The notes: a model not told the origin generated them from the letters alone. A stretch of DNA of 43,752 bases from a virus (IMGVR_UViG_3300027810_000018:1-43752), one strand, 5' to 3'. Numbered from the stretch's first letter, positions 3,501 to 43,106 are shown. Numbers and translations: made by a program.

Positions 3501-6500
3501 CTCTGATTTAAGCTCTTTTTTAAGTCTATCTTTTATATCAGTACTTAAATCCCCTAGAGAACCTTGGGTTGGTATAGACTTTTCAGACTTAGCAACTAAT
3601 TCAGATATAGATTTATTTAATTCTTCTATCTTTTTAGGCTCAACCAATGCTACATTACTCCTATTTAACTCCTCTAATTTAACAACTAATTCTCCAAGAA
3701 CAGCATTGTCTTTAATTTTGTGAGATGGAGTGTCTAATAAATCCTTAATTATATCTGATTGATTAGTGTAATCTCCTTTCTTAAGTTTCTTTCTTACTTT
3801 TTCCTTTAGAACTCTAACATTACCAATCAAATCTCTTCTTGTTTGTCTCTCTACGGCTACCTCTAAAGCATCAACAACATTATCAAACTGCTTTTCATTA
3901 GTAACAGAAGCTACTTTCTTAAGCAATGACTTACCTATAGAAGAATCGTTTAAGTCTGATTCTTTAATGTAATCAATAAGTTTATTGTTTATTTCTTTGA
4001 TATATCCTTCGGCTCCTTTAGCTCCTTTAGCCTCAGATTTAAGCACTTCTTTCAATAGAACCTTTTCACTCAGTGTAACTTTTTTCTCTTTAGGTAGTTT
4101 ATCAAATCTCTTTATAGCAACATTAGCACTAGGAGACTTCTTTTCTGTTATAGCTAACTTACTTCTAACATCTATAACAGCAGCCTCTCTTTCTTTATCA
4201 GTAGCTTCTTCGTACCACTTACTTTTTTGAAGATAAGATACAGCATTCTTTTCTAAAGTTTCAGGATTTACATCTTCAGTTAATCTCTTCTTAGTCTTAG
4301 ATATTATATTATCTATTTCAGTAAATACTCTTCCTCTTTCTTCGGATACTCTTGGTTGATTCTTAACCTGTGCGGATGGAGTCTCTACATACGAATTTCT
4401 ATAATCCATCGCCTTATCATAATTAGTGAAAGACTTTTCTTCTATTGTTAATTTTTTAGCAGGGTCGTAAACCATAGCTACAACATCTGGAGTACCATGC
4501 TTTTCTTTATTCCATCCTTCTGGAGCGTGCTCTTCATTAAATTTCATTCTAGAGACAACTCTAAATCCACTTTCCCTGTAAATTTTACTTAAGTAGTTAT
4601 CAAAATTATCCAATTTAGTTCCTCCAGCTTCAACAGCTTTACTTAATAACTTACCAGCAACTCCTTTTTCTGTAGTTCCTGGAGTCTTAAATAATCCAAC
4701 AATATCTCCATCAGCCTTAACGATAGCCTGACCTCCTTCAGTTTCTATAAGAGTTCCTTTCTTAACATCTTCAATACTAACCTCCTCTACACTCCAATAT
4801 ACATCAGGATTTTCATTTTTTGTTTTAGAAATAAGTTCGGAAAATTCAGCTTTCTTTTTAGCTACACCTAAATCTGCATCAGTAATATTTTCTCCTTTAT
4901 CAATCTTCTTAGTTATTCCGTCTAAAAATGTTAATACTTCATTATTAGTTTCAAATTTGTAATCTATTCCTAGAGTCTCCATGATTTTATTAAGCTTGAC
5001 TTTAGCTCCGTTAATAAATTCATTCTGAGTCTCTACAGTATACTCTCCTTTTTGAAGTTTAGCTATAAATTCAGCGAAAGCTTCATTCTTTTTCTCGCTA
5101 ACATCTTTATATATATCATTACCTTTTGCATCTTTAGATTTAACATAATCTAAAACCTCAGCAAATTCTGGGTTTTCATTGATTAATTTATAAACTCCCT
5201 CCTCAATAACTTTATATTTTTCTGGATTAGCTTTTTTAAGTATCTCTCCAAAGTGATGGCCAACTTCATGAGGGGTAGTTAATTTATCTAAGTGAGACAT
5301 ATTCATATGAATATCTCCTGTCTTTGTATTTCTATGTCCTTGTATATTAACTCCTTCTATCGCTTCTCCAGAGCTCTTCATGTACTCTGCATTATTAGTA
5401 TGGATGTATACATCAAGACCTAAACTTTTAAATGCTTTTATAGATTTATCAATATCAACTAAAGCTTCTTTCTGATTTTCTGTTAGATTTTCCTTATTAA
5501 TAGCTGCTATACTTTCTTCAGTAGCATAGATAGGTTTATCCCCGTCTTTACTGAGAGCTATCTCTATATTCCTAAGTAACTGATTATCCGCTTTTTGCTT
5601 TCCATCTATTTCTTGTTCATCCTCTTTCTTTACTCTAGCTTTAAGAATAACCTCATCCTGTTTAGATTTCAATTCTCTTAACTTAAGAATCTCATTCTCT
5701 ACAGCGGACTCAGTAACTTCTTCTCCCTTAGATTTAAGGCTTTCAGTAGCTTCTTCTTTAATCTTCAATTGATTAAGGCCTGAGACCTCTTGAACCTTAC
5801 TTTTAAAAGCCTCTATTAATATATTTTGATTATGAGTTCTCTCTGTAGGGGTAGTAGTGTTTAATATTTCAGTAACCTCTCCAAGAGAAGAGTTTAATTC
5901 ATTTTTTAAATAATTTACAATATCAACTTTATTGTCAAGAGATATTTCGTTATTAACATTAAATCTAGCTATGTTATCAGATATATTTTTGACTGTAGTT
6001 TGAGCGAATGTATTAGCATCTGTAGAGTTTTTAAATCTAGCTACATCCAATACATCTCCATTTTCATTAAGCTTTATTACATCAAAATTAGAACCGTTAA
6101 ATATTGTCTTAACCTCTGTAGTGACAAGTCCTTTAGCTCTTTTGTTTCTTTTAAATTTATCTTCCTCAGTATCTCCATTTACACCTAATTTTAACCCAAA
6201 CTCTCTCATTAAAATTTTAGACCTTAATGTTAAAGGAACAGTTTTATCGTGTAAAAGTTCGTTGAAAATTTCTTTATTACTAGCTATTTCCTTAGAAGTG
6301 TTATTATCCCATTCTACCTTTTCACTTACAGTAGCATTCTCATTGGGTTTTGTTAAGTTAAACTTAGCATTAATGATATCTCTCTCTATTTCAGAGAAAT
6401 TTGCAGGCATACCTTCTCCTTTCTTGAATTTACCAGTCTTTACATAAGTGAATAGTCCATTCTGAACTCCATGAGCAAACTTCATTGACAATAAGAATAG

Positions 6501-35852: not shown

Positions 35853-35898
35853 TCTTATAGCATTACAACAGCAATGCCATAGCAATGCCGTAGCATAC
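35853..35898 (-). repeat. Leader repeat, partial middle copy
   Basis: Read on the minus strand it has GCATTGCTATGGCATTGCTG and AATGCTATAAGA, matching the leader repeats at the two window edges, but without the AAGAT pentamer run and with no gene directly downstream. Confidence 0.65.
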
Positions 35899-35957
35899 CT
35901 TTGTTATATTTACAGGGTATACTAAGATAATAGTTGTATCACATAAGGGGGAGTATA

Positions 35958-36107: not shown

Positions 36108-36564
36108 CTTTATTTATGGAGCAACTAAATTATATATATGATTAATCAAAACTAATTATTAGACTGGAGTAAATTAATTGTTAAGGAGGACTTAATGATA
36201 GAGGTATAATCACCCCTTCATTATTGTTGAAAACTATTTAATAACTTGTTAGCACGATATTAGGATTTCTAGTATATATTAGTATATACTCTAGCCACTA
36301 CCTAAATAATCCATTTAAGGACTTCTAAGGACTTCTAATGTACTTGTAGTATATTGGTATCAAAACTACTAGATAATGCCTTAAACCTTACTTACTAGAG
36401 GTGTAAACCTTACTTATATCATGTTGTATCTAGTGTAATTATCATTATACATTCTTTTTACCTTGTAATTGCCTAAGTATCAACACTTTACACATTAATT
36501 GCTTATTTATAGTAATTCTAAATAAGAATGTAAATAACTTGCTTACAAATAGCTAAGGTATTGA

Positions 36565-36797
36565 TATTCAATTAGTTATATATCATTGATTATCAAGTAG
36601 TTAACTATTATTGAAATAATTATTACTTTTTTTAGCTCCATAACATATTCATTATCAAGTAGTTACAACATGACACCATTAATCCTCCAGAATCGATGTT
36701 TCTAATTATCATGATAGTTATTCCCTTAGTATTCAATCAGTTATAACCCCTTGATTATCAAGCAGTTAGCTCTAACCCTCTGAGTATCAATTACTTA
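36565..36797 (+). repeat. Six iteron-like direct repeats (TATCAAGTAGTTA)
   Basis: Copies at 36565, 36591, 36653, 36730, 36756 and 36785, all in the same orientation, share TAT(T/C)CAA(N)(T/C)A(G/C)TTA. Three match TATCAAG(T/C)AGTTA closely. Start spacings are 26, 62, 77, 26 and 29 bp. They end 20 bp before the promoter of the plus-strand operon. Iterons of a replication initiator or operator sites are both possible. Confidence 0.65.
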
Positions 36798-36816
36798 CGA
36801 CTTAATTTTAAAGCTG

Positions 36817-36824
36817 TATACTTG
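36817..36824 (+). promoter_or_regulatory. Probable -7 box TATACTTG of the right-arm operon
   Basis: Differs from TAnnTTTG at one base and lies 41 nt before the ATG at 36866. No TTG is found at -33; instead an iteron copy ends at about that distance, suggesting that an activator may bind there. Confidence 0.45.
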
Positions 36825-36865
36825 CATTATAATTAACAAAAACAAATTAATCTAAAATTTATATC

Positions 36866-37303
36866 ATGACAAAAGTAATTACAGTACCAACAAAAAACGT
36901 AGCTAAATTAGTATCAACTCTTACTCTAGCAAATAAGCACAATGCTAGTCTTGTAGGACAAGTCCTATCAGATTTAACGGACAAAGATGGAGCTACTCTT
37001 ATTGCAACGGCAAATCATATCTTTGACACTAGTAAAAAAGGTAGTGCTGACCAACGTATTAACACCTTGAATAAGACTATAAAAAGGATAACTACCAAAG
37101 AAGAGAATTTCAGCCCTTTAAAGTTATCATTCGATAGAAAAACTAGAGTTTATTCACTTGTGGAATACATTTCCAAAAGCTCGCAAAAGTCTACATTCGA
37201 GAAAATTATAGCCTTAATTGATTCAGAAAAAAGTGACTTGACTCAACTTCAGGTTCAAAAATTAGGCCAAGCCCTATTGAAGTCAATTGAAGTAGCTAAG
37301 TAG
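36866..37303 (+). CDS. First gene of the right-arm operon, 145 aa (unknown)
   Basis: Not recognised. Basic and helical, with VAKLVSTLTLANKHNASLVG, DQRINTLNKTIKRITTKEEN and a C-terminal helix LTQLQVQKLGQALLKSIEVA. No signal peptide. As first gene after the iteron-like repeats it could be a DNA-binding replication or control protein; this is inferred from place and charge only. A TAGGACAAGTCCTA palindrome lies in its coding sequence (36954-36967). Confidence 0.65.
   Translation: MTKVITVPTKNVAKLVSTLTLANKHNASLVGQVLSDLTDKDGATLIATANHIFDTSKKGSADQRINTLNKTIKRITTKEENFSPLKLSFDRKTRVYSLVEYISKSSQKSTFEKIIALIDSEKSDLTQLQVQKLGQALLKSIEVAK
36954..36967. repeat. Palindrome TAGGACAAGTCCTA, copy inside the 145-aa gene
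   Basis: Arms TAGGAC and GTCCTA with an AA centre, identical in form to the copy at 40015. Here it is coding and 88 nt downstream of the start codon. Confidence 0.75.
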
Positions 37304-37348
37304 TAAAATTGTAGGCAAATATTAGATAGGTTGAAAGTCCTATCAAAA

Positions 37349-37413
37349 TAGCTATCAATCTGGTTGAGGTACTGAAATAATAGGTACTAGAGGTTCGATT
37401 CCTTTTATAGCTA
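37349..37413 (+). tRNA. Degenerate tRNA-like cloverleaf
   Basis: TAGCTAT and ATAGCTA pair perfectly as an acceptor stem. The last arm is a canonical T-arm, AGAGG-TTCGATT-CCTTT (37389-37405). A short D-like hairpin (TCAA-TCTGG-TTGA) and a 5-bp stem GGTAC/GTACT with a loop of about 11 nt stand where D and anticodon arms should be. The element is about 65 nt, some 8 short of a normal tRNA, and the anticodon is unclear, so it is probably a decayed tRNA, a tRNA mimic, or chance. A separate hairpin GATAGG/CCTATC lies just upstream (37325-37344). Confidence 0.35.
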
Positions 37414-37422
37414 CAAATCCCA

Positions 37423-37435
37423 TAGGACAGTCCTA
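37423..37435. repeat. Palindrome TAGGACAGTCCTA, 23 nt before the 125-aa gene
   Basis: Arms of six bases around one A, followed by CGAGAAAC. One of five intergenic copies placed 21-25 nt before a start codon. Confidence 0.85.
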
Positions 37436-37458
37436 CGAGAAACAACAAAAAGTAAGCT

Positions 37459-37836
37459 ATGAATAAAATAGAATTTAGAAAATCGCTCCGTAAGTTACTG
37501 ATAATTGAAGGACTAATTAAGCCACCAAAGTTAGTGAAACCTAAAACACTATCACTATCATCACGATATGTGCCTAAAACTAAGGGCTGGATTTTAGAGG
37601 AATGGAATGGCAAAAAGCTAAAGAACAAAGGTAAAAGTAATCTGCATCATTATAGGATAAATGGAGTGTTGTACCTTGTTATAAAGACTGATAAAGGACT
37701 TGTACACGAAGTGAATAGCAGAGCTGAGTATTATACTGAAAAGTCCTCAAGTTGCCCTATGAGTAGCAGAATGAATAAAAATACCAACTTCAAACAACAA
37801 ATGGAATTGGATAAGGAGTTTTTGAGAAACTCGTAG
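37459..37836 (+). CDS. Basic protein, 125 aa (unknown)
   Basis: Not recognised. Very Lys/Arg-rich N-terminus (FRKSLRKLLIIEGLIKPPKL), then SSRYVPKTKGWILEEWNGKK and HHYRINGVLYLVIKTDKG, likely a small beta-domain. Charge suggests nucleic-acid binding. The stop TAG is part of the next palindrome (37834-37846). Part of the plus-strand run of small genes. Confidence 0.6.
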   Translation: MNKIEFRKSLRKLLIIEGLIKPPKLVKPKTLSLSSRYVPKTKGWILEEWNGKKLKNKGKSNLHHYRINGVLYLVIKTDKGLVHEVNSRAEYYTEKSSSCPMSSRMNKNTNFKQQMELDKEFLRNS

Positions 37837-37846
37837 GACAGTCCTA
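37834..37846. repeat. Palindrome TAGGACAGTCCTA, 25 nt before the 62-aa gene
   Basis: Followed by TGAGAAAC. Its first three bases form the stop codon of the 125-aa gene, so element and gene end are fused. Confidence 0.85.
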
Positions 37847-37871
37847 TGAGAAACAATTTAAAGAATTAAAG

Positions 37872-38060
37872 ATGAATATATTAGAAAGAAATCGATTAAA
37901 AGCTTGGGTAGAAAAATCAATTAAAGATGATGAGTATACTATCGCTATTACAGTAAAACTAGAACAAATGGACGAATACATAACCTACTCTAAAAAAAGG
38001 ATAGCTGAATTAGAGGCACAAGTAAAGGTATTAAAAGAAGTGTTAATTTTAAGAAAATAA
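37872..38060 (+). CDS. Small coiled-coil protein, 62 aa (unknown)
   Basis: Helical over its length, with a heptad-like C-terminus (KKRIAELEAQVKVLKEVLIL) that could dimerise. No other motif. Two nt separate it from the next gene. Confidence 0.55.
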   Translation: MNILERNRLKAWVEKSIKDDEYTIAITVKLEQMDEYITYSKKRIAELEAQVKVLKEVLILRK

Positions 38061-38062
38061 TC

Positions 38063-38425
38063 ATGAGTTTAGATGTATATTTAATAAGAAATAAATGGGT
38101 GAGTTATGATAAAGGTAAAACCCACGATAAAGGATGGGAGGACGTTTTTGACGCTAATATAACCCACAACTTAACTACTATGGCTGAAAAAGCTGGTTGT
38201 TATAAAGCCTTATGGAGACCTGAAGAAATAGGTGCTGCAAAATGTAGGAATATAATAAAAGAACTTGAGGCAGGATTATCTTACCTAAAAGATAGACCAG
38301 AGTACTTCAAGCAATTTGAGAATATTAATGGTTGGGGAACATACGAACAATTTGTACAATTTGTAGAGAATTACCTACAAGCTTGTGTTAAACACCCTAA
38401 TGCAGATATTTTTGTATCAAGGTAA
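38063..38425 (+). CDS. Conserved phage protein of unknown function (NITHNL / LWRPEE family), 120 aa
   Basis: Starts MSLDVYLIRNKWVSYD and carries DANITHNLTTMAEKAGCYKA, LWRPEE, INGWGTYEQFVQFVENY and a final VSR. I recognise this set as a widespread phage family of about 100-120 residues; no activity is known to me. The conserved His, Trp and Arg residues suggest a ligand or nucleotide pocket. Full length for the family. Confidence 0.7.
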   Translation: MSLDVYLIRNKWVSYDKGKTHDKGWEDVFDANITHNLTTMAEKAGCYKALWRPEEIGAAKCRNIIKELEAGLSYLKDRPEYFKQFENINGWGTYEQFVQFVENYLQACVKHPNADIFVSR

Positions 38426-38451
38426 GTGAACCAATAACTATCATAATCTCA

Positions 38452-38464
38452 TAGGACAGTCCTA
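38452..38464. repeat. Palindrome TAGGACAGTCCTA, 25 nt before the 116-aa gene
   Basis: Here the arms extend outward (CTCA before, TGGG after) to about ten pairs. This copy is followed by TGGGAGTTAAAT instead of the usual GAGAAAC. Confidence 0.85.
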
Positions 38465-38489
38465 TGGGAGTTAAATCAAATAATAAAAA

Positions 38490-38840
38490 ATGAAATACAC
38501 AATTAACATAGGATTAGGAAATAACAACTACAGTAAAGCGGTGGAACTTATAAATAATGCACGTCAAGGCGGATACTTTGAAGATTATCATATAAGAGAA
38601 ATGAATGGGGAATATAATGGAGTACCTGAGCCTACAATAGTATTAACATTAGAAACAAAAGCCGACATTGTTAGCATGAATGAATTAGTAAAAAGGTGGT
38701 GTACACAAATGAACCAAATTTGTATCGCAATCCAATTAAAAGACAATGATAACAATACTTTTGGAGCCTTGATATACGAGAAAAATTTTAAAGGTGAACA
38801 ATCAAATTTTAACAGTAAATATTTTTTAAATAATAACTAA
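38490..38840 (+). CDS. Conserved-type small protein, 116 aa (unknown)
   Basis: Begins with beta sequence MKYTINIGLGNNNYSKAVEL and has GEYNGVPEPTIVLTL, MNQICIAIQLKDNDN and a C-terminal FNSKYFLNN. A similar plan (INIGLNNN... EPT... QECIA... YF) occurs in small proteins of other Bacteroidota phages and plasmids as far as I recall; no function known. Its start lies 25 nt after a palindrome. Confidence 0.6.
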   Translation: MKYTINIGLGNNNYSKAVELINNARQGGYFEDYHIREMNGEYNGVPEPTIVLTLETKADIVSMNELVKRWCTQMNQICIAIQLKDNDNNTFGALIYEKNFKGEQSNFNSKYFLNNN

Positions 38841-38852
38841 AACAATAAAATC

Positions 38853-39134
38853 ATGGTATTAAGAAGTGAACAAGGAAAAAAAGCGTGGTGTGATACGAGA
38901 AGTATTGCTTTTGGACACGGAAAAGAGATTAGAGCGAGTATAGTAAGGAGTTTTATACAATATCCTTACCATTTAGCTGATAAGATAAGCAAATATGCTT
39001 ACCAAATTGAGGGTAAACAGCCATTTCATAGGGATATTAGCGTGAATGATGCCTTAAATAGCATAGAAAACACTGATGAACTAATGAGTTGGGTGGAATA
39101 TATGGAAGCATTTGGATTAAAGATACAGAGGTAA
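38853..39134 (+). CDS. Small basic protein, 93 aa (unknown)
   Basis: Not recognised. Contains WCDTRSIAFGHGKEIRASIV and a helical middle (YPYHLADKISKYAYQIEGKQ). Twelve nt after the previous stop, no palindrome in between. Probably co-translated. Confidence 0.55.
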   Translation: MVLRSEQGKKAWCDTRSIAFGHGKEIRASIVRSFIQYPYHLADKISKYAYQIEGKQPFHRDISVNDALNSIENTDELMSWVEYMEAFGLKIQR

Positions 39135-39150
39135 TACTATCATCATCCCG

Positions 39151-39163
39151 TAGGACAGTCCTA
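39151..39163. repeat. Palindrome TAGGACAGTCCTA, 23 nt before the 60-aa gene
   Basis: Followed by TGAGAAAC and preceded by AATACTATCATCATC (39133-39147), a second shared motif of this region. Confidence 0.85.
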
Positions 39164-39186
39164 TGAGAAACTAAGTAAATAAACAA

Positions 39187-39369
39187 ATGAAAAAAGATAA
39201 ACAACCAATAGCAATTAAACCACCAATAGGTTTAAGACCAAGATTCATGAATGATACCGAAAGATTTAATGAGGTTACCAGAGCTATAGAGAGATACCGT
39301 GCTGCTCAATTAAAAATACCTATTGAATGGGTTGAAGAGTATAATGAGTTGATAGAATTATTAAACTAA
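39187..39369 (+). CDS. Small conserved-type phage protein, 60 aa
   Basis: IKPPIGLRPRFMNDTERFNE followed by IERYRAAQLKIPIEWVEEYN. A short family reading 'KPIGLrPr... R..Ei..AI.RY..a...IP.eWieEYNel' recurs in Bacteroidota phages and hosts; role unknown. Probably two helices. Confidence 0.6.
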   Translation: MKKDKQPIAIKPPIGLRPRFMNDTERFNEVTRAIERYRAAQLKIPIEWVEEYNELIELLN

Positions 39370-39379
39370 ATAAAAGAAA

Positions 39380-39718
39380 ATGAATGAAATTAACGAGTTT
39401 ATATTAAAATTAGAAAACTTAAATTGGAGAGGTTTTGAAGATGATACCCTTATAAGTGAAGAGGGTTTTGAATTATCTTATCGAACAAAACTACACGGAC
39501 AAAAGGGTAGTGGTAGTTTATTCCCTCCAATACAAACAATATGGTACATCAGCTATGATAAAAAAACCATTTTTTCTTACGGCTGTATATCTAATGCAGA
39601 AACACAACGGATAGTAGATTTCTACCTAAACACTAAGTATAGTTTAACAGATAAAATATACAAGGACGGAATAGATGTAGAAAAAGAGGGGGAAATGATT
39701 TGGAATAATTTAATTTAA
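39380..39718 (+). CDS. Hypothetical protein, 112 aa
   Basis: Not recognised. N-terminal amphipathic helix (MNEINEFILKLENLNWRGF), then beta-type sequence with SLFPPIQTIWYISYDKKTIF. No signal or membrane segment. Ten nt after the previous gene. Confidence 0.55.
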   Translation: MNEINEFILKLENLNWRGFEDDTLISEEGFELSYRTKLHGQKGSGSLFPPIQTIWYISYDKKTIFSYGCISNAETQRIVDFYLNTKYSLTDKIYKDGIDVEKEGEMIWNNLI

Positions 39719-39728
39719 AATAATAGAT

Positions 39729-40010
39729 ATGGAATTTAAAGTAATTAGGGAAAAACTATCATCACGAGGTGGTGGTATTGAAATTGATTTAACTCCTTTT
39801 GGAAAGAAATGGGAGGGAGAAAAAATGACTGCATATCAAAACTACTTAGGTGGTGGAATGCTAGGTAGTATAGCTAATGACTGTACCTTTGATGATTGGA
39901 GGTCAGATAAAGTGCTAGAAATAATAGCAACTAACTTAAGAAAATACTTTGCTGAACTAATGGAGATTGATTATGAAGAGCATAAGTCAAGACCAGTATC
40001 AGCGTATTAA
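39729..40010 (+). CDS. Hypothetical protein, 93 aa
   Basis: Not recognised. IEIDLTPFGKKWEGEKMTAY and a Gly-rich YLGGGMLGSIAND lead to an acidic helix (LRKYFAELMEIDYEEHKSRP). The 'YQNYLGGGMLG.I' phrase looks conserved across similar small phage proteins, but I cannot name a family. Confidence 0.55.
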   Translation: MEFKVIREKLSSRGGGIEIDLTPFGKKWEGEKMTAYQNYLGGGMLGSIANDCTFDDWRSDKVLEIIATNLRKYFAELMEIDYEEHKSRPVSAY

Positions 40011-40014
40011 TCCG

Positions 40015-40028
40015 TAGGACAAGTCCTA
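40015..40028. repeat. Palindrome TAGGACAAGTCCTA, 21 nt before the zinc-ribbon-like gene
   Basis: AA-centred form as at 36954, followed by TGAGAAAC. Confidence 0.85.
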
Positions 40029-40049
40029 TGAGAAACTAAATAAATAATT

Positions 40050-40301
40050 ATGAGTGAACAAGTTAGTCCATGCTGCGGAGCGGACTTTAAAGAAGCAGAA
40101 GGTACTTATTGCTGTAACGCTAAGCTATCTGAAACAGGATTGTGTTATGAATGCCATGACCATTCTGCAATAGATGGTAATTGGTGTGATGAATGTGATG
40201 AAAACTTTGAAGACTCTGAAGATGAAAATGAAAGGGATGCTAGAATTCAAGAAAATGCAATGGAAGAAAAAGCAGACGCTAAAAGAAAATATGATGAATA
40301 A
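40050..40301 (+). CDS. Cys-rich zinc-ribbon-like acidic protein, 83 aa
   Basis: Eight cysteines: 8, 9, 21, 22, 32, 35, 46 and 49, including CYEC and CDEC knuckles (CYECHDHSAIDGNWCDECDE). The C-terminal 30 residues are highly charged and probably helical (Glu/Lys/Asp). Likely a zinc-binding scaffold that mediates protein contacts. Overlaps the start of the TIDRHA gene, so the two are coupled. Confidence 0.6.
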   Translation: MSEQVSPCCGADFKEAEGTYCCNAKLSETGLCYECHDHSAIDGNWCDECDENFEDSEDENERDARIQENAMEEKADAKRKYDE

Positions 40302-40899
40302 AAAACAAATATATAAAGGAGAAATTCTTACTAGAACTAAGGTAAAAAACAATATACTTGGCTTTTATCTTAATTCCTCTAAAGAGGATAGAAGAGATTG
40401 GTATGGAGATGCTAATAGCTTTGCTAAATCTCTAGCAGATAGGTATAATATCAGTGTAAATAAATCTACTGGTGTAATAGCTGCACTCTCTCCTGTAAAA
40501 ACATGGAGTCAGAATATGATATGTGCTGAAAAAATGATTGCCGTAGGAAAGTCCTACCACATGAGACAATTTGAGGATAAAGCAAGGCGAATACTATCAT
40601 CATCAGGCTCAGATGAGTCTATATTAGCTATTTTAAGAGGCTCTAAGATAAGTTCTTTCTATCTTAATATAATGTATCCAAATAACCCTAAAAACATCAC
40701 CATTGATAGACACGCTCTTTCAGTATCTTTAGGTAAATGGACAACGGATGCTGATTATCAGGGAATGACTAAAACACAATATCAATTCTTTGTCGATTGC
40801 TTTAAATATACGGCTAAACAAATAGAAATATCTCCATTACTATTACAATCTAGTACTTGGGAGGCATTCAGGAAAATTAAATCTAACTATAAACAATAA
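40291..40899 (+). CDS. Phage protein with GVIAALSP and TIDRHA motifs (glycosylase-like fold possible), 202 aa
   Basis: A longer frame upstream would overlap the zinc-ribbon gene, so the ATG pair at 40291/40294 is taken as start. The motifs RDWYGDANSFAKSLADRY, GVIAALSPVKTWSQNM, KISSFYLNIMYP, ITIDRHALSV and QSSTWEAFRK fit a phage-borne family of unknown function that I recall by these blocks. The helical layout and invariant Asp-Arg-His suggest an HhH-type DNA-glycosylase-like fold, but this is conjecture. A palindrome variant (40543-40557) and the shared ACTATCATCATC motif lie within the gene. Confidence 0.65.
   Translation: MMNKKQIYKGEILTRTKVKNNILGFYLNSSKEDRRDWYGDANSFAKSLADRYNISVNKSTGVIAALSPVKTWSQNMICAEKMIAVGKSYHMRQFEDKARRILSSSGSDESILAILRGSKISSFYLNIMYPNNPKNITIDRHALSVSLGKWTTDADYQGMTKTQYQFFVDCFKYTAKQIEISPLLLQSSTWEAFRKIKSNYKQ
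40543..40557. repeat. Palindrome variant GTAGGAAAGTCCTAC inside the TIDRHA gene
   Basis: Arms GTAGGA and TCCTAC with AAG centre, encoding Val-Gly-Lys-Ser. It differs from the intergenic copies by C to A in the left arm and followed by CACATGAGAC rather than TGAGAAAC. Confidence 0.65.
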
Positions 40900-42958: not shown

Positions 42959-43036
42959 ATGAGAGTCAAAGAAAACATAGTTGAATCTATAGTATGGATA
43001 ACATTATTACTGGCAGCCCTATTTTTACAGGGTTAA
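42959..43036 (+). CDS. Single-pass membrane microprotein, 25 aa
   Basis: ATG at 42959, stop TAA at 43034-43036. A charged start (MRVKENIVES) leads to IVWITLLLAALFLQG, one membrane span. Its place between two genes and the lack of any other use for the gap support it modestly. The leader repeat begins right after its stop, as the left copy begins right after the 91-aa gene's stop. Confidence 0.4.
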   Translation: MRVKENIVESIVWITLLLAALFLQG

Positions 43037-43106
43037 AGTATGCTGTAGCAATGCTACGGCAATGCAGATGCAATGCTATAAGATAAGATAAGATAAGATA
43101 ATATAA
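43037..43106 (+). repeat. Leader repeat, right copy: TAGCAATGC-like units plus AAGAT pentamers
   Basis: GTAGCAATGCTACGGCAATG, then AATGCTATAAGATAAGATAA with further pentamers and ATAATATAACA, 14 nt before the ATG at 43121. Same order and orientation relative to the downstream gene as the left copy. GTAGC-AAT-GCTAC can form a small hairpin. Confidence 0.75.

Follow-up and report, generated by a model that had tools for sequence, protein, structure and literature searches.

The window analysed here is the whole 43,752-nucleotide (nt) stretch of a virus record (IMGVR_UViG_3300027810_000018:1-43752), in which the terminase, the portal and one virion protein match phage families, the structural genes run leftward and the early (non-structural) genes run rightward. 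Dispersed through the early operon is a palindrome, TAGGACA(A)GTCCTA, present as six exact copies and one variant, all on the plus strand between 36954 and 40556 and none elsewhere in the 43.7-kb window (Table 1). The nearest annotated phages by terminase are less than 40% identical and include phages of Flavobacterium, Cellulophaga and Maribacter, so the host is probably a member of the marine Bacteroidetes (Flavobacteriia). A terminase scan of a genome collection yielded at best a 35% relative, in a Flavobacterium metagenome-assembled genome, and thus no prophage or host of this phage clade; among annotated phages, neither the operon DNA nor any single element used as a query had a real match.

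The palindrome array in the window

The first copy lies within the first early gene, denoted F4, five copies are intergenic, and the variant lies within a gene of the DUF7178 (TIDRHA) family. All five early-operon gaps of at least 35 nt hold one copy each, and gaps of 12 nt or less hold none. The first, second, fourth and fifth of the five intergenic copies continue as Y-GAGAAAC. The copy at 37834 opens with the stop codon TAG of the preceding gene (37459-37836), an arrangement repeated in the relative L007. Successive exact copies are separated by 469, 411, 618, 699 and 864 nt, becoming sparser downstream. When families of identical palindromes with 6-bp arms and a spacer of 1-2 were counted in 100 dinucleotide-shuffled versions of the window, none exceeded four members, a size reached once, against the six observed, which carry three G/C per arm.

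These results bear out the initial annotation on the positions of the copies, on their distances to the next ATG, on the GAGAAAC that follows four of them and on the shortness of the element-free gaps. Its argument that the palindromes are not terminators also stands: the flanks are A-rich, and the hairpin followed by a T-run that marks an intrinsic terminator was found at no copy in the window, L007 or L178/L179.

Arm versions and placement in related phages

Relatives were drawn from a terminase scan, including L007 (63 kb, 91%), L008 (87%), L029 (76%), L019 (75%) and L032 (67%), and L177-L179 were added through a DUF7178 scan. Six exact copies of the window word occur in L007, five of them as GTAGGACA(A)GTCCTAC. 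In its place, TCGGACAAGTCCGA, with the pattern TCGGA-CAAG-TCCGA, occurs five to eleven times in each of L019, L032 and their close kin (L056/L095, L105), and L177-L179 carry GTCGGA-N3/4-TCCGAC (eleven copies each in L178 and L179). The first early gene of L008 is preceded by GGTTGGA-AAA-TCCAACC and followed by CGTTGGA-AAA-TCCAACG. In a tally of 58 copies from seven genomes (the window, L007, L008, L019, L032, L178 and L179), the GGA...TCC core is kept in all 58, with 3-4 nt between the halves, and the pair next to it is A-T in 13, C-G in 41, T-A in two and mismatched in two; in almost every copy of a genome, therefore, the two arms have changed jointly. The compensatory changes for which the initial annotation had suggested looking are thus present clade by clade, as TAGGA/TCCTA, TCGGA/TCCGA and TTGGA/TCCAA. 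One mismatched copy, TAGGACAAGTCCGA in L019, forms the stop codon TAG of the preceding gene. The array is real and non-random, and what is conserved is the class of element, not its sequence.

Within each genome the arms are nearly invariant, with few exceptions, and the spacer varies in length and sequence, the ratio of 3-nt to 4-nt spacers being 5:2 in the window and 4:3 in L007. Read on the coding strand, every copy but one (CATG) of the window, L007, L019, L032 and L008 has A at its spacer centre, a bias that L178/L179 do not show. In those two genomes most spacers read YNR, and R..Y predominates just outside the arms, with no preference for bases that pair (G..T in six copies, A..C in four). 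The window word together with its GAGAAAC flank was matched only in the window's own record, since the flanks differ in the relatives. No array was seen in broader primase relatives, though many of those loci stop short of the operon start.

Besides scattered imperfect matches, the copies are confined to the early operon of these 52-63-kb contigs, where they start near the first gene and thin out downstream (spacings of 133 to 2777 nt in L019). Most copies precede an ATG by 14-31 nt in L007 and by 16-24 nt in L008. Many of those in L019 and L032 fall within coding sequence, where they nearly always read Ser-Asp-Lys-Ser, and spacing to start codons is lost in L019, L032, L178 and L179. The fixed distance to the start codon is therefore a local property of one sub-clade, and the 5' untranslated or translational element at fixed distance that the initial annotation had proposed is not supported. 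The same annotation had held that related phages keeping the genes without the palindromes or their spacing would refute it; the palindromes and the early operon are both kept and the spacing is lost, so that this refutation applies in part.

At the variant site of the DUF7178 gene, the same codons hold a copy with one mismatch in L007 and no copy in L019 and L032; near codon 29 of that gene, L032 and L178/L179 have a copy and the window and L019 do not, with no insertion. Elements therefore come and go by substitution. Codon identity between the window and L007 is 5/5 within in-gene copies versus 53/93, a difference that is suggestive only, other pairs being too close to tell. An element may stand before one gene in the window and before another in L007, as happens after gene F9, a pattern that might be expected of boundary or recombination words of exchangeable gene cassettes. 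We consider this very unlikely, given that in-gene copies arise through substitution at homologous codons and that the arms change together in all copies of a genome.

Sequences like the type I hammerhead ribozyme, with a full core and three stems, were recognised by eye in the early operons of relatives, at L177 7017, L178 1969, L179 3094, L147 (reverse complement) 4981 and L290 ~970-1030. Several lie directly downstream of an element, and in L177-L179 and L032 one lies just after one copy; Rfam at the gathering score called no hammerheads in the loci searched (L147, L178 and L179). A palindrome at L029 18501 was rejected as an element since it is stem III of a hammerhead. Cleavage after GUC, as predicted, would detach the element from the downstream message; this and the occurrence of copies inside genes speak against a leader element that serves the next cistron. 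A translational element in front of each cistron, of the kind described in mycobacteriophages as start-associated sequences (SAS) or extended start-associated sequences (ESAS), would suit the distances to the ATG in the window, L007 and L008, but it is unlikely: the spacing is lost in four relatives, in-gene copies are many, the predicted hammerhead cut would part one copy from its gene, and the window spacing would also result if each gap were filled by one element followed by a short A-rich leader.

Table 1. Elements and neighbouring features of the early region (window coordinates unless a locus is named)
Feature	Position	Strand	Remarks
Copy 1, TAGGACAAGTCCTA	36954..36967	+	Inside first early gene, codes GQVL; spacer 4 (CAAG); orthologous copy in L007
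Copy 2, TAGGACAGTCCTA	37423..37435	+	23 nt before ATG 37459; spacer 3 (CAG); orthologous copy in L007
Copy 3	37834..37846	+	25 nt before ATG 37872; same arrangement in L007
Copy 4	38452..38464	+	25 nt before ATG 38490
Copy 5	39151..39163	+	23 nt before ATG 39187
Copy 6, TAGGACAAGTCCTA	40015..40028	+	21 nt before ATG 40050; spacer 3 at the orthologous position in L007
Variant, TAGGAAAGTCCTA	40544..40556	+	Inside DUF7178 (TIDRHA) gene
F4, first early-operon gene	36866..37303	+	145 amino acids; candidate cognate regulator, by co-occurrence with the element
Putative Bacteroidetes-type -7 promoter box, TATACTTGCA	36817..36826	+	Pattern scan; precedes first early gene
Iteron-like repeats, TTGATTATCAAGYAGTTA	36586-36603, 36751-36768; degenerate copies 36476-36800; L176 3873; L290 233, 475		Upstream of early operon

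Upstream of the operon, the same -7 box occurs at L176 3939 and L290 521, and the iteron-like repeats mark a possible replication origin or control region. A pair of 49-nt inverted repeats (35853-35901 and 43035-43083, 80% complementary, ~7.1 kb apart) brackets the early region. The word ACTATCATMAT/ACTATCATCAC recurs in and before early-operon gaps (38437, 39136, 39756, 40592 and 41583) and is also found in L146 and L290.

A candidate partner gene and modes of recognition

F4 was found in the window, L007, L008, L019, L032 and its kin, and L177-L179, all of which carry the element. This co-occurrence covers the element-bearing genomes with a readable operon start (L105 and its copies begin inside the operon), and every one of these has at least one site in, before or just after F4. 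In the genome G004 (loci L029/L290), the iterons, a hammerhead, gene F5 and DUF7178 are kept, and F4 and the element are both absent from the part covered; the terminase tree nests G004 with L019 (support 99/100). This joint absence is a single natural case and not proof. Family searches returned no accepted match for F4, and a search of annotated phages no real match. Two AlphaFold models (mean predicted local distance difference test scores of 72.6 and 76.3) show helices, a beta-hairpin and more helices. A MarR-like fold was rejected: the PDB matches of the first model include several MarR-type repressors, none of them significant (best E 0.27), and the second model does not repeat them.

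Since the relatives carry the same type of word with both halves changed in step, a regulator site is likelier than a protein-start signal. We propose that the palindromes may be sites in double-stranded DNA recognised by a dimeric regulator that the phage encodes and that acts on the early operon, with F4 as the first candidate; to this reading we assign a probability of roughly 0.5. Its half-site would be (G)TNGGA-Y, with N specific to the clade and the half-sites 3-4 bp apart; sites would lie mostly downstream of the early promoter or promoters, about one per 0.4-0.7 kb at first and sparser later, in gaps or within genes wherever the code tolerates them. Once made, the regulator would occupy the array and block or slow RNA polymerase, a roadblock suggested by analogy, and the early operon, including the regulator's own gene, would be switched off in the manner of stoperators. 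Near-invariant arms around a free spacer support such a reading, as do the compensated arm changes by clade, the confinement of the copies to the early operon, the co-occurrence with F4 and the gain of sites by substitution within coding sequence, which resembles binding-site turnover; the YNR spacer and R..Y flank of L178/L179 form a symmetric signature of the kind that half-site contacts would give. Among the three readings that the initial annotation had offered, the best supported is thus an operator at which a dimeric protein acts on each cistron, on account of the near-invariant arms, the two-sided clade changes and the free spacer.

Five points weigh against this reading. Spacers of 3 and 4 coexist in one genome, which rigid dimeric repressors usually do not tolerate; the coding-strand A at the spacer centre of five genomes is needless for a symmetric site; the sites are not on promoters, unlike classical operators; only one clear relative lacks both F4 and the element; and F4 has no recognised DNA-binding fold.

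Some of these observations would suit hairpins formed by the early RNA, with a stem of 5-7 bp and a loop of 3-4 nt, that a phage factor reads co-transcriptionally as a nut/boxB-like antitermination element or as a processing element acting before the message is cut. The stems are kept through compensated changes while the loop varies in length and sequence, they are predicted to be stable (-5 to -10 kcal/mol), the loop is oriented in five of the seven genomes, and a spacer of either 3 or 4 is readily accommodated by a loop and poorly by a rigid dimer. The sites also lie downstream of early promoters at falling density, in operons that contain hammerheads and a transfer RNA (tRNA)-like cloverleaf. 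This cloverleaf, at 37347-37414 between F4 and the next palindrome copy (37423), has an acceptor and a T arm with GGTTCGATTCC; its homologous stretch is at L176 ~4500-4570, and its acceptor stem differs from that of L007 by paired changes. It was missed by ARAGORN at default settings, and a lowered threshold gave only poor, inconsistent tRNA models. On the other hand, the stem sequence itself is near-fixed in each genome, whereas in RNA hairpins that bind proteins it is usually the loop that stays constant; at the pair outside the core, G-U is not favoured over A-C (6 versus 4); no boxA-like neighbour was noticed by eye; the loop has no orientation in L178/L179; and Rfam gave no match in the window at the gathering score, with only sub-threshold matches at E up to 5 and none of these at an element. 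A hairpin read as RNA is accordingly possible but doubtful, and we favour recognition as DNA, which we infer, by about two to one. In the relative L146, Rfam matched DUF805b RNA at 3860-3894 on the minus strand (46.1 bits, above gathering).

The hairpin promoters of phage N4 have a 5-bp stem and a 3-nt loop. Stem and loop of such a size and a location in the early region would also fit promoters for a virion RNA polymerase, an explanation we regard as highly improbable: no polymerase was recognised in the 3015- or 2904-amino-acid virion proteins, loop length is variable, and ordinary Bacteroidetes -7 boxes precede the operons.

A wider proposal is that a previously unrecognised family, F4, binding DNA or RNA, reads the palindromes scattered along the early operon to control elongation, and that in each clade of these lytic-looking flavobacterial podoviruses the protein and all its sites shifted together to a new specificity, so that the clades would be insensitive to one another. 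We put this forward tentatively, as the more speculative part of our interpretation.

Relation to described arrays

According to the initial annotation, no element of this form had been described in such phages; this holds for such phages in the literature searched, and a similar array exists in mycobacteriophages of cluster O (Corndog). Theirs is a 17-bp palindrome, TGTTCGG-N3-CCGAACA, in 34 copies, ~40% of them intergenic, with nearly invariant arms, a variable centre, many copies near or inside genes and the highest density in one operon; a dimeric regulator was proposed, no binder is known, and no lysogens were recovered (PMC4351075). The family described here shares the near-invariant inverted arms (GGA/TCC in 58/58), the variable spacer, the many copies in short gaps and inside genes, and the favouring of one operon. 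It differs in host phylum, in its arms and in a spacer of 3 or 4, where cluster O has 7-bp arms (TGTTCGG) and a fixed 3-nt spacer, and it alone shows confinement to the early operon, compensated clade-specific arms and an indicated candidate partner gene.

The stoperators of cluster A (L5), according to the discussion of PMC4351075 and to general knowledge, are asymmetric and bound by a known repressor of temperate phages. They resemble the present sites as dispersed sites proposed to stop elongation when a phage protein binds, and differ in that the core here is palindromic, the binder only a candidate, and neither a repressor nor an integrase or lysogeny in evidence. Stoperators are oriented with transcription; here the spacer centre is oriented in five of the seven genomes and unoriented in L178/L179. 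In cluster K, SAS are asymmetric and closely tied to start codons, and ESAS are inverted repeats with a subcluster-specific consensus (PMC3203893). Repeats in the non-structural half, linked to gene starts and, for ESAS, inverted, recall the window; the start link that holds there is lost in L019, L032, L178 and L179.

The SOS operator of Flavobacteriaceae, GGA-N5-TCC, has the same dyad and belongs to the likely host group (PMC8565304). That the palindromes are operators of a host SOS (LexA-like) regulator is nevertheless the least probable of the explanations considered, and this identity was rejected because the SOS spacer is fixed at 5 and its change abolishes binding (PMC8565304), as against 3-4 in the phages; moreover, the outer arm pair changes by phage clade, and matches to GGA-N5-TCC in the window are at chance level.

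Palindromes in unrelated phages were kept apart. CGGACAWGTCCG, in the unrelated siphoviruses G017/G018, lies mostly 13-24 nt before early genes with Shine-Dalgarno sequences; it was rejected as the same system and treated as an independent array or coincidence because no protein is convincingly shared and its centre is unoriented. In unrelated 76-79-kb siphoviruses (L150-L154; contigs 3300032257_000006 and 3300032212_000003), TTCGGACAWGTCCGAA precedes early genes, in most cases by 13-24 nt, and lies upstream of the Shine-Dalgarno sequence; their structural genes lack it. Other DUF7178-bearing phages (L186, L187-L189, L192-L194, L196-L204 and L206) each have their own multi-copy palindrome, such as TGACACCGGTGTCA (three to six copies) or CAAGCATTTAATTGCTTG (three to four), some just upstream of sigma70-like promoters; they were not counted as the same system because they share only the DUF7178 gene with the window operon.

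The array is thus a variation on an already described yet unexplained type, dispersed palindromic phage arrays having been reported before, in cluster O, without a binder or a function. In this family, nature provides at least four versions of the arms, together with a candidate partner gene and one nested relative from which both the gene and the element are missing, and the partner and its specificity rule are therefore directly testable. If F4 binds the palindromes, it would constitute a new family of regulators, and the operon would be a rare phage example of sites evolving in concert.

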